A stretch of DNA of 7,502 nt from the NCBI GenBank assembly GCA_016209865.1, contig JACQVL010000315.1:1-7502 (forward strand). Reading direction: 5' to 3'. Position numbers and translations under genes: made by a program. Of this stretch, positions 1,734 through 7,502 are shown one piece after another; position 1 is the stretch's first letter; every line of letters begins with the position of its first letter. The notes beneath the pieces are model-generated. The model made no database searches and had not been told where the DNA came from. It worked only from the letters and a program-made list of their open reading frames with translations. Source of the DNA: Candidatus Latescibacterota bacterium (GTDB lineage: Bacteria > JAAXHH01 > JACQVL01).

Positions 1734-1758
1734 ATCGGATGGCGTCCGGGAATCCGAT
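1734..1758. promoter_or_regulatory. Candidate operator: 7-bp dyad between divergent promoters
   Basis: ATCGGAT (1734-1740) and its exact complement ATCCGAT (1752-1758) are separated by 11 bases, an 18-base centre-to-centre spacing suited to a dimeric DNA-binding protein. The right arm touches the first base of the plus-strand -35 box. Centred near -47 for the plus promoter and about -69 for the minus promoter, it could regulate both. No regulator gene is in the window, so this is a structural inference only. Confidence 0.35.
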
Positions 1759-1786
1759 TGACGGGTCATGCCAGGGGGTGTATATT
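1758..1786 (+). promoter_or_regulatory. Sigma70-type promoter giving a near-leaderless mRNA
   Basis: TTGACG (1758-1763), a 17-base spacer and TATATT (1781-1786) form a near-consensus promoter. Standard spacing places transcription start at about 1793, two bases before the methyltransferase ATG at 1795. The only purine-rich stretch upstream (AGGGGG, 1773-1778) is 16 bases from the ATG, too far to act as a Shine-Dalgarno, and would not be in the transcript. The head gene of the plus-strand unit is therefore probably translated leaderlessly. Confidence 0.65.
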
Positions 1787-1794
1787 GAAATATC

Positions 1795-2571
1795 ATGACT
1801 CCGTCTGCAGAATGGTACACCCAGGCATTCCGGCTCGACTATCTGCGGGTCTACCCGCACCGGAACGACGACGAAGCGCGCCGCCAGGTCGAATTTCTGA
1901 TCCGGACGCTGCGTCTGGCGCCCGGCCTGGACGTGTTCGACCTGGGCTGCGGGGACGGCCGGCACGCCATCCCACTCGCCCGGCGCGGGTACCGTGTCAC
2001 CGGACTCGACCTGTCCGGCGACCTGCTCGACCGGGCGCGGGAGCGCGCGCGGACGCTCGGCCTCACGATCACCTTCATCCGCGGGGATATGCGCGACATC
2101 CCGTACGATGAGGCGTTCGACCTGGTCGTCTGCTTCTTCACCAGTTTCGGCTATTTTCAGGAGGACGAGGAGAATGAACGCGTCCTCCACGCCATCGCCC
2201 GGGCCCTCCGGCCGGCTGGACGGTTCTTCATCGATTACCTGAACCGGGATTACGTCCTCCAGACGCTCGTCCCGCACGACCGGCGGGAACAGGATGGACT
2301 GATCATCGAACAGGAGCGCTGGGTGACGGGCGAGCCGGACCGGACAGGTTCAGCCGTGCGCATCAATAAACGGGTCACGGTGACCGAAGCGGGCGTCTCG
2401 CGAACCTACGAGGAATCCGTCCGGATGTATACGCTCGCGGAATTGACCGCGATGGCGGCACGGGCGGGACTGACCATGACTCACACGTTCGGCGAGTTCG
2501 ACGGCCGGCCGTTCGGGGCGGACACGCCGCGTTTGATCGTCGTAGGGACGAAACATTCGCCCATACCGTAG
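1795..2571 (+). CDS. Class I SAM-dependent methyltransferase, possible bacillithiol N-methyltransferase
   Basis: This 258-residue soluble enzyme has a Rossmann-type methyltransferase fold. Motif I is DLGCGDGRH (49-57), the acidic residue after strand 2 is D72 in GLDLS, the strand-4 block is FDLVVCFFTSFGYF (108-121), and the post-III block ALRPAGRFFIDY (137-148) is typical. The N-terminal WYTQAF...DYLRVYPHR (7-23) is characteristic of this subgroup and supports the start at 1795 despite no Shine-Dalgarno. It heads the transcription unit that continues into a SAM hydrolase and the bacillithiol genes. In Chlorobaculum tepidum a SAM-dependent methyltransferase (NmbA) makes N-methyl-bacillithiol; this gene is a positional candidate for that role, but the fold alone does not fix the substrate. 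The last residues (TKHSPIP) are encoded by a copy of an 18-base repeat, and the TAG stop lies in the next copy, so the C-terminus seems to have been reshaped by repeat insertion. Confidence 0.9.
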   Translation: MTPSAEWYTQAFRLDYLRVYPHRNDDEARRQVEFLIRTLRLAPGLDVFDLGCGDGRHAIPLARRGYRVTGLDLSGDLLDRARERARTLGLTITFIRGDMRDIPYDEAFDLVVCFFTSFGYFQEDEENERVLHAIARALRPAGRFFIDYLNRDYVLQTLVPHDRREQDGLIIEQERWVTGEPDRTGSAVRINKRVTVTEAGVSRTYEESVRMYTLAELTAMAARAGLTMTHTFGEFDGRPFGADTPRLIVVGTKHSPIP

Positions 2572-2640
2572 GGGCGGAAACATTCGTTCCCTCATTCAAC
2601 CTGTTTTTCTTTTATCAAGCTCCGAATGCTTCGCCCCTAC
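2542..2640. repeat. Three copies of an 18-19 base GTAGGGGCG repeat, two forming a long hairpin
   Basis: Direct copies lie at 2542-2559 (GTAGGGACGAAACATTCG) and 2568-2586 (GTAGGGGCGGAAACATTCG). An inverted copy lies at 2623-2640 (CGAATGCTTCGCCCCTAC). Copies two and three can form a stem of about 17 pairs with one bulge and one mismatch, around a pyrimidine-rich 36-base loop. Copy one is inside the methyltransferase coding region, copy two contains its stop codon, and copy three ends one base before the SAM hydrolase ATG. The hairpin has no following U tract, so it is not a standard terminator, though it may hinder transcription or translation between the two genes. Confidence 0.8.
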
Positions 2641-2641
2641 T

Positions 2642-3439
2642 ATGGCCATCATTACCATCCTCACCGATTTCGGCGTGCGTGACGGGTTCGTCGGGACGAT
2701 GAAGGGGGTCATCCTGGGGATCAACCCGGCGGTCACCCTCGTCGATCTCGCCCACGATATCGCGCCCCAGGACATTGAGGAGGCCGCGTTCCTCCTGCGG
2801 AACGCCTACCGGTATTTCCCGTCCGGGACGATCCACGTCGTCGTCGTCGACCCGGGAGTGGGAAGCACGCGCCGGGCGCTCATCGTCGAATCACCCCGGC
2901 ACACGTTCGTCGGGCCGGATAACGGGGTGTTCGCTTACATCTACCGGATGGAACCGGAGGCGCGGGTCACCGCCGTCACGAACCCCGCGTACTGTCTGCC
3001 CGAACGCAGCCGCACCTTCCACGGCCGGGATGTGTTCGCGCCGGTCGCCGCCCATCTGTCACGCGGAGTCAGCCCCTCCGCCTGCGGCGTCCCCGCCCAT
3101 GATTACGTGAGAGGCGAGGTGACGGAGCCGGTGATCACCCCGGACCGCATCGACGGGCATATCATCCATACTGACCGGTTCGGGAATGCGATCACTGACA
3201 TTCCGGAGGATCGCTTCATCGAGGCGACGCGGGGCCGGGCATTCCGGGTGGAGATCACGACCTGCCAGTTTGATCGGCTCAGTCAATCCTACGCAGACGT
3301 GCCAGACGGCAGTCCGTTAGCCATCTTCGGGAGTGCGGGACTCCTGGAGGTCGCGGTGAACGGCGGAAACGCCGCGCAGGCGCTGGGATTGAAGCGTGGG
3401 GATCCAGTGAGCGTAAAAATAGTGACGAGTGACAAGTGA
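2642..3439 (+). CDS. SAM hydrolase (SAM hydroxide adenosyltransferase, DUF62 family)
   Basis: This 265-residue enzyme belongs to the SAM-dependent chlorinase/fluorinase-like family. Most bacterial members use hydroxide to cleave S-adenosylmethionine into adenosine and methionine. Family blocks are ITILTDFG (4-11), VVVVDPGVGSTRR (66-78), GPDNGVF (91-97), SRTFHGRDVFAP (123-134), HTDRFGNAITDI (176-187) and GSAGLLEVAVNGGNAAQALG (230-249). The triad D70, R77 and H127 matches the Asp-Arg-His set of hydroxide adenosyltransferases and argues against halogenase activity. The start MAIITILTDFG is standard, yet no Shine-Dalgarno precedes it; the right arm of a repeat hairpin ends one base before the ATG. 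It lies 70 bases after the methyltransferase and 16 before bshC. The last five residues (VTSDK) and the stop are encoded by a heptamer array, so the native C-terminus was probably replaced. Its role beside bacillithiol genes is unknown; SAM turnover with the neighbouring methyltransferase is one possibility. Confidence 0.93.
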   Translation: MAIITILTDFGVRDGFVGTMKGVILGINPAVTLVDLAHDIAPQDIEEAAFLLRNAYRYFPSGTIHVVVVDPGVGSTRRALIVESPRHTFVGPDNGVFAYIYRMEPEARVTAVTNPAYCLPERSRTFHGRDVFAPVAAHLSRGVSPSACGVPAHDYVRGEVTEPVITPDRIDGHIIHTDRFGNAITDIPEDRFIEATRGRAFRVEITTCQFDRLSQSYADVPDGSPLAIFGSAGLLEVAVNGGNAAQALGLKRGDPVSVKIVTSDK

Positions 3440-3448
3440 CGAGTGACG
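3421..3448. repeat. AGTGACG heptamer array overlapping the SAM hydrolase stop codon
   Basis: Four 7-base units are in tandem: AGTGACG (3421-3427), AGTGACA (3428-3434), AGTGACG (3435-3441) and AGTGACG (3442-3448). The SAM hydrolase stop TGA (3437-3439) lies inside the third unit, and the array ends seven bases before the bshC ATG, filling the region where a Shine-Dalgarno would be expected. Confidence 0.85.
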
Positions 3449-3455
3449 AACAAAC

Positions 3456-5096
3456 ATGACCGTCCACACCATCCCTTTCAACCAGACGATGCCGTCTTCC
3501 TCACTGTTTACGGCGTACATCAACACGTTTGACCGTCTGTCGCCGTTCTACGCGCTCGACCCGTGCGGGGGAGTGCCGGTGTGGGAGCGTATGGCCGACC
3601 TGGTTGATCAACGGAATAACAGGCTCCCACGACGCGAAGTCACAACCGCGCTCCGTGAGCAGGGCCATCGATTCGGCGTGGATGACCGGTCGCTGGCTCA
3701 CATCGACGCGCTCGCGGCGGACGAGACGCTCGCCGTCGTGACCGGCCAGCAGGTCGGCCTGTTCATCGGCCCGTTGTATACGGTCTACAAGGCGATCACC
3801 GCGATCAACTTAGCGGAGCGTCTGGAACACCAGCTCGGACGGCGGGTCGTGCCGGTGTTCTGGATGGGCGCGGACGACCATGATTTTGAGGAGATCAACC
3901 ATATCACGGTGTGCAACCAGGCGAATGAACTCGTCCGGCTGGAGCTCGTCCCGAACGAGCCGGCCGACCGCCGGTCGGCCGCGCACATCCGGTTCGGAGA
4001 CGGGATCAACACGGTGATCGATGCGTTCGCCGGAGGCTTGCCGGATGCTGAATTCAAGCCGGCTATGATCCAACTCCTCCGGGACTGTTGCCCGCCCGAC
4101 GAGACATTCGCCGCCGGGTTCGCCCGTTTGATGGCGAGGCTCTTCCGGGGCCGCGGGTTGGTCATCGTCGACCCGACGGACCCCGCGTTGAAGCGGCTGA
4201 TGCGGCCGGTGTTCGAGCGGGAGGTCCGGTTTCCGCTCCGCACGACAGCGGCCGTGCGAGACGCCGGACAACGACTGGAACGGGCCGGGTACCATCAGCA
4301 GATCGAGCGGGAGCCGGACGCGGTCAACCTCTTCCTTTACCACGACGGCCGCCGGACGCCGGTCGCGTATGCAGACGGCCGGTTCTCTCTGCGTGAGACC
4401 GGTGTCTCGTACAGCCCGGAGGACCTGTTACGCCTGATCGAGACCACGCCCGACTCATTCAGTCAGAACGTCATCACCCGCCCGATCGTCCAGGATTCCC
4501 TGCTGCCCACCTTAGCCTACATCGGCGGCCCGTCGGAGATCGCCTATTTCGCCCAGCTCAAGGGCGTCTACGACCACCACGGCCTGCCCGTCCCCATCGT
4601 CTACCCCCGGGCGAGCCTGACGATCGTCGAGCGGCGGGTGGCGAAAGTCCTGGAGAAATACGGCCTCACCGTCGCGGATTTCTTCGGGAATATCCATGCG
4701 ACCGAACGCCGGCTCATCCGTGACGAGATGCCGGACGACCTGACGACCGCGTTCGAGCAGACACGTACGGTTCTTACAGAACATTTCGGTCGACTCGCAG
4801 ACGAGGTCGCTTCCATCGATCCCACCCTCCGTCAGGCGACTCAGTCTGCCCAGGGGAAGGCGGAATTCGAGCTAGCCCGGCTGGAAGAGAAGGCTGTCCA
4901 GGCGTACAAGCGGTCGAACCAGACGACCCGCCAGCAATTGGAGAAAGCTAAGCAGCAACTCTACCCGCACGACCGGCACCAGGAACGGGTGTTCAACATC
5001 TGGCCGTATCTCGTCCTGCATGGGTTCGGGTTCATCGACACCATGTTTGATGCCGTCGATGTCGAGCGGTTTGCGCACACGGTGGTGTTCCTATGA
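3456..5096 (+). CDS. bshC: Bacillithiol biosynthesis cysteine-adding enzyme BshC
   Basis: BshC is assigned the last step of bacillithiol synthesis, adding L-cysteine to the amino group of glucosaminyl-malate. At 546 residues it has the normal length for the family (about 540). Diagnostic blocks are the N-terminal IPFNQT (6-11), VTGQQVGLFIGPLYTVYKA (95-113), VFWMGADDHDFEEINHI (134-150), SFSQNVITRPIVQD (334-347) and GGPSEIAYFAQL (357-368). A charged helical region (about 430-505), expected to form the coiled-coil arm, precedes the conserved C-terminal segment. The start agrees with family N-termini, but no clear Shine-Dalgarno is seen; a heptamer array occupies 3421-3448. Translation may be coupled to the SAM hydrolase, whose stop is 16 bases upstream. 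The stop overlaps the bshB1 start in an ATGA arrangement, a strong sign of one operon. Confidence 0.96.
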   Translation: MTVHTIPFNQTMPSSSLFTAYINTFDRLSPFYALDPCGGVPVWERMADLVDQRNNRLPRREVTTALREQGHRFGVDDRSLAHIDALAADETLAVVTGQQVGLFIGPLYTVYKAITAINLAERLEHQLGRRVVPVFWMGADDHDFEEINHITVCNQANELVRLELVPNEPADRRSAAHIRFGDGINTVIDAFAGGLPDAEFKPAMIQLLRDCCPPDETFAAGFARLMARLFRGRGLVIVDPTDPALKRLMRPVFEREVRFPLRTTAAVRDAGQRLERAGYHQQIEREPDAVNLFLYHDGRRTPVAYADGRFSLRETGVSYSPEDLLRLIETTPDSFSQNVITRPIVQDSLLPTLAYIGGPSEIAYFAQLKGVYDHHGLPVPIVYPRASLTIVERRVAKVLEKYGLTVADFFGNIHATERRLIRDEMPDDLTTAFEQTRTVLTEHFGRLADEVASIDPTLRQATQSAQGKAEFELARLEEKAVQAYKRSNQTTRQQLEKAKQQLYPHDRHQERVFNIWPYLVLHGFGFIDTMFDAVDVERFAHTVVFL

Positions 5097-5836
5097 CCCT
5101 CGACCTGCTCGTCTTCGCCCCCCACCGGGATGACGCGGAGTTGCACTGCGGGGGACTGTTGATCAAGATGGCACAGAAGGGGTACGCCGTCGGGGTCGTC
5201 GACCTGACCTTAGGGGAGATGGCGACGCGCGGGACGGTGGAGGGACGGGCGCGCGAGGCGGCACAGGCCGCCGCTATCCTGGGACTGGCGGCGCGGGACA
5301 ACTTAGAGATTCCGGACACCCGGGTTGATTCCACCGAGGAGAACCAGCTCAAAGTCATCCGGGCGATCCGGACGTACCGTCCCCGGCTCGTCCTCTTGCC
5401 GTACGAGACCGCCCGGCATCCTGACCACCGCCAGACGAGCCTCCTGATCCAGGAAGCCGCGTTCCTGTCGGGACTCCCCAAGATCGACACCGGACAGGAC
5501 GCGCACCGGCCCCAGCGGCTCGTGTTCTACTTCACCCTGTACAACTACCGGGGGATCACGCCATCATTCATCGTCGATATCACCGCGCAGTACGAGCGCA
5601 AGATGGAGGCGGTCCGGACGTACGGGTCGCAGTTCTACAACCCGGCGTCGACCGAGCCGGAGACGTTCATCAGCCGGCCGGAATTCCTCGTCCTGATCGA
5701 CACGTATAGCCGGTATTTCGGCTCCCTCATCGGCGTGGAGCGCGGCGAGCCGTTCTTCGTCCGGGAATACCTGGAACTCGACGACCCGGTCGCACAGTTT
5801 GGGGATCAGGGAAAAGCAAGGGCGTATTTGCCATAG
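5093..5836 (+). CDS. bshB1: Bacillithiol biosynthesis deacetylase BshB1
   Basis: BshB1 is a zinc-dependent PIG-L/LmbE-type deacetylase. It removes the acetyl group from GlcNAc-malate to give GlcN-malate, the second pathway step. The protein is 247 residues, close to the family norm. The N-terminal metal motif appears as APHRDDAELHCGG (9-21), with R12 where the family usually has Pro (HPDD). The predicted zinc ligands H11 and D14 and the catalytic D13 are kept. The second metal motif ARHPDHRQT (107-115) supplies H112 as the third ligand, with H109 nearby. TYGSQFYN (176-183) is a further block typical of BshB1. The start overlaps the bshC stop by four bases (ATGA), pointing to translational coupling; no strong Shine-Dalgarno is needed or seen. 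The stop is followed after four bases by an AGTGACG heptamer array. Confidence 0.95.
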   Translation: MTLDLLVFAPHRDDAELHCGGLLIKMAQKGYAVGVVDLTLGEMATRGTVEGRAREAAQAAAILGLAARDNLEIPDTRVDSTEENQLKVIRAIRTYRPRLVLLPYETARHPDHRQTSLLIQEAAFLSGLPKIDTGQDAHRPQRLVFYFTLYNYRGITPSFIVDITAQYERKMEAVRTYGSQFYNPASTEPETFISRPEFLVLIDTYSRYFGSLIGVERGEPFFVREYLELDDPVAQFGDQGKARAYLP

Positions 5837-5840
5837 AATC

Positions 5841-5861
5841 AGTGACAAGTGACGAGTGACG
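5841..5861. repeat. AGTGACG heptamer array, left arm of a 19-bp inverted repeat
   Basis: Three tandem units are present: AGTGACA (5841-5847), AGTGACG (5848-5854) and AGTGACG (5855-5861), starting four bases after the bshB1 stop. Bases 5841-5859 are the exact reverse complement of 5966-5984. Confidence 0.85.
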
Positions 5862-5965
5862 AGAAAGAGTGGAAAAACAGGAGTTCATACCATCTTTCGA
5901 CGATAGAGCATGAGGGATTGTTGTCATTCCCGCGAAAGCGGGGAGTGGGAATTCGTATCCTTCTT
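5860..5965. other. Spacer of the composite inverted repeat, no gene seen
   Basis: This 106-base interior lies between the two heptamer arms in the bshB1-bshA gap. Apart from the CCCGC-GAAA-GCGGG palindrome (5929-5942) I see no coding sequence, RNA gene or convincing promoter for bshA. A TATCCT at 5956-5961 resembles a -10 box but has no -35 box at the right distance. Confidence 0.5.
5921..5945. repeat. Dispersed palindrome with GAAA tetraloop (GTCATTCCCGCGAAAGCGGG type)
   Basis: CCCGC (5929-5933), a GAAA loop and GCGGG (5938-5942) form a compact hairpin, extended by T5928-G5943 and T5927-A5944. The sequence around it matches a dispersed intergenic palindrome seen in many Gram-negative and uncultured bacteria; read on the minus strand it yields the spurious peptide PAFAGMT often found at the ends of mis-called proteins. 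It sits inside the composite inverted repeat between bshB1 and bshA. Confidence 0.75.
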
Positions 5966-5998
5966 TCACTCGTCACTTGTCACTCGCCACTCGTCACT
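5966..5998. repeat. Inverted heptamer array (CGTCACT), right arm of the 19-bp inverted repeat
   Basis: A partial unit TCACT (5966-5970) is followed by CGTCACT (5971-5977), TGTCACT (5978-5984), CGCCACT (5985-5991) and CGTCACT (5992-5998). It is the same heptamer as at 3421 and 5841 but in the opposite orientation. The array ends five bases before the bshA Shine-Dalgarno. Confidence 0.85.
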
Positions 5999-6003
5999 GC
6001 AGT

Positions 6004-6010
6004 AAGGAGA
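6004..6010 (+). promoter_or_regulatory. Shine-Dalgarno of bshA
   Basis: AAGGAGA lies four bases before the ATG at 6015. It is the only strong ribosome binding site among the plus-strand genes here, fitting independent translation of bshA after the repeat-filled gap. Confidence 0.8.
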
Positions 6011-6014
6011 CCTC

Positions 6015-7136
6015 ATGCGCATCGGCATCACGTGTTACCCCACCTACGGCGGAAGCGGCGCGATCGCGACGGAGCTGGGACAGGCGTTAGCGAAACGGGG
6101 GCACAAGATTCATTTCATCAGCTATTCCCTCCCGTTCCGGCTTCAGGAATACAACGAGAACATCTCGTTCCACGACGTGGAGATCATGCCGTACCCGCTG
6201 TTCAAGTATCCGCCCTATACCCTCGCCCTGGCCGCCAAGATGGCCGCCGTCGCGGAGGACGCCTCTCTCGACGTGCTCCATGTCCATTACGCCGTCCCGC
6301 ACGCCACCTGCGCGTACCTGGCCCGCCACATGCTCCGGGACCGGGACATCAAGGTGATCACGACCTTACACGGCACGGACATCACCCTCGTTGGGAGCGA
6401 CAAATCGTTCTACCAGATCACGAAGTTCAGCATCGAAGAGAGCGACGGGATCACGGCGGTGTCCGAGTCGCTGAGACGCGACACGATCTCCCTGTTCGGG
6501 CTCACGAAAGACATCCGGGTCATCCCTAATTTCGTCAATACCGGACGATTCCGGCGGGAAGCCGGAGAGTGCACCCTCAGGGGCATCGTGCAGGAGGACG
6601 AGAAGATCCTGCTCCACATCTCCAACTTCCGGCCGGTGAAACGGATCACGGACATCATCAGGATGTTCGTCAAGATCAAGCCGAAGATTAAGTCGAAACT
6701 CCTGATGGTCGGAGAAGGGCCGGATCGGATTCCCGCGCAGGAACTGGCCAAGGAGCTCGGCCTGCGGGAGAGTGTCGTCTTCCTCGGCCTGCAGGAAGGG
6801 GTGGATGATATCTTGCCCTGCGCCGACCTGTACCTGCTGCCGAGCGAACAGGAGAGCTTCGGCCTGTCCGCCCTCGAAGCGATGAGCTGCGAGGTGCCGG
6901 TCATCGGAACGAACGTCGGCGGACTCCCGGAACTGGTGAAACATGGGGAGACCGGGTTCATCGCCGAGGTGGGGGATGTGGACAAGATGGCGCAGTACGC
7001 GGTCGAACTCCTGTCGGATGACCGGCTTCGGCGGCAGATTGGTCAGCAGGCCCGTCAGCGGGTGCTGGAGCACTTCGACCAGGACCTCATCGTGCCGCAG
7101 TACGAGGCGTATTATGAGGAGATTCTCAGGCAGTAA
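6015..7136 (+). CDS. bshA: N-acetyl-alpha-D-glucosaminyl L-malate synthase BshA
   Basis: BshA is a retaining GT4-type glycosyltransferase that joins GlcNAc from UDP-GlcNAc to L-malate, the first committed step of bacillithiol synthesis. The 373-residue protein closely tracks Bacillus BshA (about 377). Visible blocks are MRIGITCYPTYGGSG (1-15) with the glycine-rich loop, ELGQALAKRGHKIHFIS (20-36), FKYPPY (63-68), HYAVPHA (91-97), TTLHGTDITLVG (116-127), the nucleotide-sugar motif E280-x7-E288 in SEQESFGLSALEAM (277-290), and VPVIGTNVGGLPELV (294-308). The start agrees with the family and has a good Shine-Dalgarno. It is separated from bshB1 by 178 bases filled with repeats, so it may be co-transcribed through them or have its own weak promoter; none is evident. 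It is followed after five bases by a GNAT gene. Confidence 0.96.
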   Translation: MRIGITCYPTYGGSGAIATELGQALAKRGHKIHFISYSLPFRLQEYNENISFHDVEIMPYPLFKYPPYTLALAAKMAAVAEDASLDVLHVHYAVPHATCAYLARHMLRDRDIKVITTLHGTDITLVGSDKSFYQITKFSIEESDGITAVSESLRRDTISLFGLTKDIRVIPNFVNTGRFRREAGECTLRGIVQEDEKILLHISNFRPVKRITDIIRMFVKIKPKIKSKLLMVGEGPDRIPAQELAKELGLRESVVFLGLQEGVDDILPCADLYLLPSEQESFGLSALEAMSCEVPVIGTNVGGLPELVKHGETGFIAEVGDVDKMAQYAVELLSDDRLRRQIGQQARQRVLEHFDQDLIVPQYEAYYEEILRQ

Positions 7137-7141
7137 GCCCT

Positions 7142-7502
7142 ATGATTCGCCCATTCCGTGAATCCGACCGCCAGGCCCTCAAAGACATCACCGCCATCTG
7201 TTTCGATGGGGTGTCCATCGATCAGAACATCGAAAAGCAATTCGGCATGATCGCGGGCCGGACGTGGCAGTGGCGCAAAGTCCGTCATATCGATGCCGAT
7301 GCGGACGCCAACCCATCGGGCATCTTCGTCGCAGAAGAAAATGGGAACGTCATCGGCTACGTCACCACCCGGCTGGATCACGACAGCAAGATCGGCTGGA
7401 TTCCCAACATGGCCGTCCTGCCCGGCTATCAGGGTCGCGGGATGGGCAAACAGCTCATGCAAACCGCCCTCGACTACCTCCGCGTCTCCGGCATGGAGTA
7501 TG
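7142..7502 (+). CDS. GNAT-family acetyltransferase, 3' end beyond the window
   Basis: The 120 visible codons encode the N-terminal part of a GNAT N-acetyltransferase. It starts with the usual MIRPFRESDRQAL (1-13) and carries an acetyl-CoA binding motif A, NMAVLPGYQGRGMGKQLM (89-106), with the Q-x2-G-x-G pyrophosphate loop. The middle (about 61-79) is the expected pair of beta strands. The gene starts five bases after the bshA stop, so it is probably in the same unit. Substrate cannot be told from this fragment: a protein N-terminus, a small amine, or a thiol-pathway compound are all possible. In mycothiol synthesis a GNAT enzyme (MshD) acetylates the cysteine amine, which makes the location next to bshA worth noting but proves nothing. 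The strand and frame are clear; the C-terminus is cut by the window edge. Confidence 0.88.
   Translation, partial: MIRPFRESDRQALKDITAICFDGVSIDQNIEKQFGMIAGRTWQWRKVRHIDADADANPSGIFVAEENGNVIGYVTTRLDHDSKIGWIPNMAVLPGYQGRGMGKQLMQTALDYLRVSGMEY

Follow-up and report, generated by a model that had tools for sequence, protein, structure and literature searches.

Does the methyltransferase (MT) that heads a bacillithiol (BSH) gene cluster in a marine candidate-phylum bacterium, Candidatus Latescibacterota, act on BSH, and does the cluster as a whole encode a route to N-methyl-bacillithiol (N-Me-BSH)? The locus lies on a single contig of 7,502 bp (C252), referred to in full as the window below, from a MAG that totals 3.75 Mb over 356 contigs, is 83% complete and has Candidatus Latescibacterota MAGs as its nearest named relatives. 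N-Me-BSH synthesis and the broad distribution of its methyltransferase NmbA are already known: deletion of nmbA in Chlorobaculum tepidum supports N-methylation of BSH in vivo (PMC6282198), the NmbA proteins of C. tepidum and Paenibacillus polymyxa (CtNmbA and PpNmbA) methylate BSH in vitro (PMC12719100), and bacillithiol genes have been reported from Latescibacteria (PMC4454575).

The first-pass annotation of the window described one co-directional unit of the MT and three bsh genes, complete protein motifs throughout and a promoter at the MT only. The four genes and their shared plus strand were borne out, while a DUF62 SAM hydrolase on the same strand, which directly follows the MT, had been omitted (Table 1). 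Profile searches placed BshA, BshB1 and BshC far above their NCBIfam equivalog cut-offs, and the MT proved to be a complete class I SAM methyltransferase. The intergenic gaps from the MT through the SAM hydrolase, bshC, bshB1 and bshA to a truncated GNAT gene amount to 70, 16, -4, 178 and 5 bp, the negative value being a 4-bp overlap of bshC and bshB1. Within the unit, plus-strand promoter-like matches clustered at the MT alone, as had been stated; the best is TTGACG-17-TATATT (1758-1786, 10/12), followed by matches at 1768-1796 and 1785-1813, and the whole window holds six such matches against 1.3 +/- 1.2 expected, judged by consensus only. Between the -10 element of the best match and the ATG of the MT lie 8 nt, so that a transcript starting from it would be leaderless. 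No known RNA element was matched in an Rfam search of the window.

Table 1. Features of the analysed contig, with the evidence for each assignment.
Feature	Position	Strand	Basis
Promoter-like cluster, three matches at MT start	1758..1813	+	consensus only
nmbA orthologue, predicted SAM-dependent bacillithiol N-methyltransferase (MT), 258 aa	1795..2571	+	PDB, tree, signature, AF2/Foldseek
DUF62 SAM hydrolase (SAM hydroxide adenosyltransferase), 265 aa	2642..3439	+	PF01887/PF20257, E 4e-58
Dispersed-repeat copy, AGTGACAAGTGACGAGTGACGA core, SAM hydrolase/bshC junction	3421..3449	+	40 exact 22-mer copies genome-wide
bshC, bacillithiol synthase (cysteine-adding)	3456..5096	+	TIGR03998 531 bits, cut-off 266
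bshB1, GlcNAc-malate deacetylase	5093..5836	+	TIGR04001 257 bits, cut-off 183
bshB1-bshA gap with two repeat copies	5837..6014	+	direct 5841-5863, inverted 5966-5998
bshA, GlcNAc-malate synthase	6015..7136	+	TIGR03999 563 bits, cut-off 274
GNAT acetyltransferase, runs off contig	7142..7501	+	PF00583

Several neighbouring genes were recorded alongside the unit. The GNAT gene also closely trails bshA in two relatives (G011 and G013). Upstream, the minus strand carries a cupin gene and a phosphoenolpyruvate hydrolase-like gene (PF09370) at 88-513 and 537-1370, a pair that was not seen adjoining nmbA among the relatives examined, and between this pair and the MT lies a minus-strand ORF of 74 aa (1387-1611) with a CxxCxxxC motif plus one further cysteine (...SCPLF). 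This ORF yielded no Pfam or NCBIfam match and is kept near nmbA in other Latescibacterota (L065, L069, L071, L076, L077).

Comparison of the MT with all PDB sequences returned CtNmbA (CT1040, 9RI2) as the best match (36% identity, E 6e-43, residues 5-250), followed by the cypemycin N-terminal methyltransferase CypM, which shares the fold class and gave a far weaker E of 9e-22. By BLASTP, MT and CtNmbA aligned over their full length (E 1e-50, 36% identity over 252 columns), within the published limits for NmbA homology (E 1e-20, identity >25%, coverage >80%). A maximum-likelihood tree of 64 rows, the bootstrap of which had almost, though not fully, converged, separated a 43-row NmbA clade from a 21-row sister group by a branch with support of 100/99. 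The NmbA clade comprises CtNmbA, the window MT, its Latescibacterota orthologues and every bshC-adjacent MT; its other rows all stem from bshC-bearing genomes, so that none of the 43 rows belongs to a genome lacking bshC. The sister group takes in all 10 MTs sampled from bshC-less genomes as well as a second paralogue from the order of the host. The alignment and tree against C. tepidum NmbA that the first-pass annotation had proposed thus placed the MT with CtNmbA and not with a family of unrelated substrate. The AF2 model of the MT (pLDDT 90.8) had 9RI2 as its best Foldseek match, with near ties by Z: 3D2L, 9RI2 and CypM scored alike, and a ranking by structure is not enough to pick out NmbA. 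The 9RI2 crystal has an unusual cap-domain topology, and according to the paper on it the cap strands are put in the wrong place by AlphaFold even in the case of CtNmbA.

Four residues of the MT, Y20, R23, K192 and E207 (Y30, R33, K198 and E214 in CtNmbA), are invariant in the NmbA clade and occur in 24, 5, 0 and 0% of sister-group rows, respectively. We infer that these residues bind BSH. The complete set was found in no MT from a bshC-less genome and in 0 of 55 weaker survey homologues, which had not been used to derive the signature. Among the best 80 named loci, 71 carry all four residues and one with an internal stop (L197) carries three; the remaining 8 lack the signature, and none of these lies beside bshC. 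As some of the 80 loci belong to genomes of the tree rows or their close kin, this last comparison is only partly independent. In addition, the aromatic pair Y120-F121 of the MT corresponds to Y134-F135 of CtNmbA. The host genome also encodes a second MT paralogue (G000:C268:56-760), 40% identical and with orthologues in all searched genomes of the order; it was rejected as the true NmbA, since it falls in the sister group and is without the signature.

The genomic distribution of the clade was assessed in 384 genomes spread over the domain. Outside the order of the host, bshC was present in 33 of 33 genomes with an NmbA-clade gene versus 40 of 336 other genomes (Fisher p 5e-27, a value that overstates independence because related genomes were counted singly). 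Two of the 33 (G022 and G309) had been found via their position by bshC, and dropping both made no material difference; conversely, 40 bshC genomes of the survey carry no NmbA-clade gene. In 20 other surveyed genomes the MT is the gene next upstream of bshC, and so it is in 50 of the best 80 named loci, which, being best matches only, give no survey estimate. These 50 loci span at least 8 phyla (Hydrogenedentota, Acidobacteriota, Planctomycetota, Gemmatimonadota, Calditrichota, Pseudomonadota, Chloroflexota and Actinomycetota, together with unassigned MAGs), and 27 of them show the MT-bshC-bshB1-bshA order of the window. The expected co-occurrence with bshC was therefore found, and homologues are not concentrated in bshC-less genomes, whereas the gene order, singled out in the first-pass annotation as the reverse of the pathway, had to be rejected as a special feature, this being the common order in such operons.

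The SAM hydrolase of the unit contains both SAM_HAT domains, N and C (PF01887, E 3.8e-58; PF20257), matches 2CW5, 2ZBU and PH0463 in the PDB, and scores 230 bits against NF058624, below the cut-off of 350. D70, R77 and H127, which we take to be the catalytic triad by comparison of motif placement and spacing with PH0463 and not from a structure, are the same in all 14 linked homologues. Both domains and the Asp-Arg-His triad are shared with the DUF62 SAM hydrolases PH0463 and StDUF62, in contrast to which the window gene sits between nmbA and bshC and falls under the equivalog cut-off for Thermus-type (R)-SAM hydrolases. A His-Arg-Asp triad is the hallmark of DUF62 hydrolases, and halogenases lack it (PMC10491745). 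StDUF62 prefers (R,S)-SAM, although the physiological role of that preference has been doubted and the function of these enzymes may still be unknown (PMC12120602, 2025).

A SAM hydrolase gene was found beside nmbA and/or bshC in the host's own order and in four lineages outside it (f61, f102, f147 and f201), in loci that include L276-L286 and L085. It directly precedes bshC in genome G073 and, within family f102, in 7 of 7 genomes, and precedes nmbA in genome G256 and in 3 of 4 genomes of f147, in two of which bshC comes next; with nmbA it forms a pair in most Latescibacterota genomes. Outside the own order, SAM hydrolase and bshC were paired in 5 genomes of 3 families, against about 0.02 expected by chance for the 48 genomes with both genes. 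We tentatively propose, at somewhat less than even confidence, that DUF62 is a recurrent SAM-clearing accessory of (N-methyl-)bacillithiol synthesis, with its gene next to nmbA, bshC or both in five or more deep lineages. No nmbA was found in G073, and in f102 nmbA lies elsewhere, so the SAM hydrolase is not simply a partner of NmbA. Its bsh-linked members did not form one clade in the SAM hydrolase tree, and a single origin is not excluded.

A housekeeping passenger without functional tie to bacillithiol, sharing only its position with the bsh genes, is an explanation that we consider a real possibility, though short of probable. DUF62 genes are widespread, occurring in 190 of the 384 surveyed genomes and mostly apart from bsh genes, and the G073 gene adjoins bshC in a genome where no nmbA was found. 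Mere passage is harder to reconcile with the linkage to nmbA or bshC in the own order, f61, f102, f147 and f201, with the excess of bshC pairings over chance, and with f147, where nmbA lies between both genes. Taken together, a tie between DUF62 and this SAM-using thiol pathway is plausible but unproven.

A second reservation concerns the integrity of the joined unit. A dispersed repeat of 7-mer-like units (AGTGACAAGTGACGAGTGACGA) occurs in the window at 3428-3449, 5841-5862 and 5970-5998 (reverse); its 22-mer has 40 exact copies in the MAG and none for a reversed control, and the SAM hydrolase ORF owes its 3' end to the copy of about 29 bp that lies at its junction with bshC. As the MT-SAM hydrolase pair and the bshCBA operon form separate units in the other Latescibacterota examined and are joined in the window at this repeat, assembly chimerism is possible, as is a true rearrangement. 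We regard an artefact that fused the pair to a bshC-bshB1-bshA-GNAT operon as unlikely, even though the MAG consists of many contigs and the join carries one of the exact 22-mer copies: the usual final assembly k-mers and reads are longer than the repeat, and linkages of SAM hydrolase with bshC, of MT with bshC and of SAM hydrolase, MT and bshC also occur in unrelated genomes. The identities of the enzymes are independent of whether the junction is real, and the predicted pathway would stand in either case.

Finally, that the MT methylates another amine (a CypM-like peptide N-terminus or a glycine-type amine) and stands in a bsh neighbourhood by chance is very improbable: its superfamily is common to CypM, YunM and glycine N-methyltransferases and its predicted fold fits 3D2L and CypM equally well, but CtNmbA outranks CypM by 21 orders of magnitude in sequence, the clade always occurs with bshC in our sample and adjoins it in many phyla, and the MTs found without bshC have no signature. 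A generic or other-substrate methyltransferase was likewise rejected by PDB ranking, tree and signature.

Thus, we concluded from sequence comparison that the window MT is an orthologue of NmbA, a predicted bacillithiol N-methyltransferase, and that the window very probably represents a complete N-Me-BSH operon, a judgement that excludes the SAM hydrolase step. Because of the NmbA orthology, clade membership, signature and MT-bshC context, the locus is best explained as an ordinary N-Me-BSH operon in Candidatus Latescibacterota. The earlier proposal that the MT modifies bacillithiol or its precursor is upheld for bacillithiol itself; the precursor is the less likely substrate, given the in vitro activity of CtNmbA and PpNmbA on BSH (PMC12719100). 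By analogy with characterised orthologues, BshA would couple GlcNAc to malate, BshB1 would take off the acetyl group, BshC would complete bacillithiol by adding cysteine, and the NmbA orthologue would then use SAM to methylate bacillithiol on its cysteine nitrogen; less firmly, the SAM hydrolase would most likely clear (R,S)-SAM that would burden a SAM-using thiol pathway.

With the C. tepidum and P. polymyxa systems the locus shares full-length NmbA homology, the SAM motifs, the signature, the aromatic pair and the presence of bshA-C in the genome. It differs from C. tepidum in phylum and in gene arrangement, nmbA being in an operon with bsh genes here and the C. tepidum locus tags being distant (CT0548, CT1419, CT1558, CT1040). 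All three Bsh enzymes exceed their equivalog cut-offs as in established bacillithiol biosynthesis, with the difference that here they lie close together in a unit headed by nmbA and a SAM hydrolase gene. Points against our reading are the identity of only 36% to a characterised NmbA in a pathway predicted here from genes, the placement of the MT away from bshC in other Latescibacterota examined, the tie of 3D2L, 9RI2 and CypM in structural rank, and the second, sister-group MT of the host genome. In the open-licence literature searched, we found no paper on an nmbA-led operon with bshC, on the residue signature or on a tie between bacillithiol and a SAM hydrolase, which is weak evidence of novelty.

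These results extend the predicted N-methyl-bacillithiol pathway to Latescibacterota. The four-residue signature tells NmbA from look-alike methyltransferases, and since nmbA is often the immediate upstream neighbour of bshC in bsh operons, the thiol can be predicted from gene context. The repeated presence of a SAM hydrolase gene at such loci provides a context in which DUF62 enzymes can be tested and, if the proposed connection is true, SAM hydrolases would gain a physiological partner pathway.
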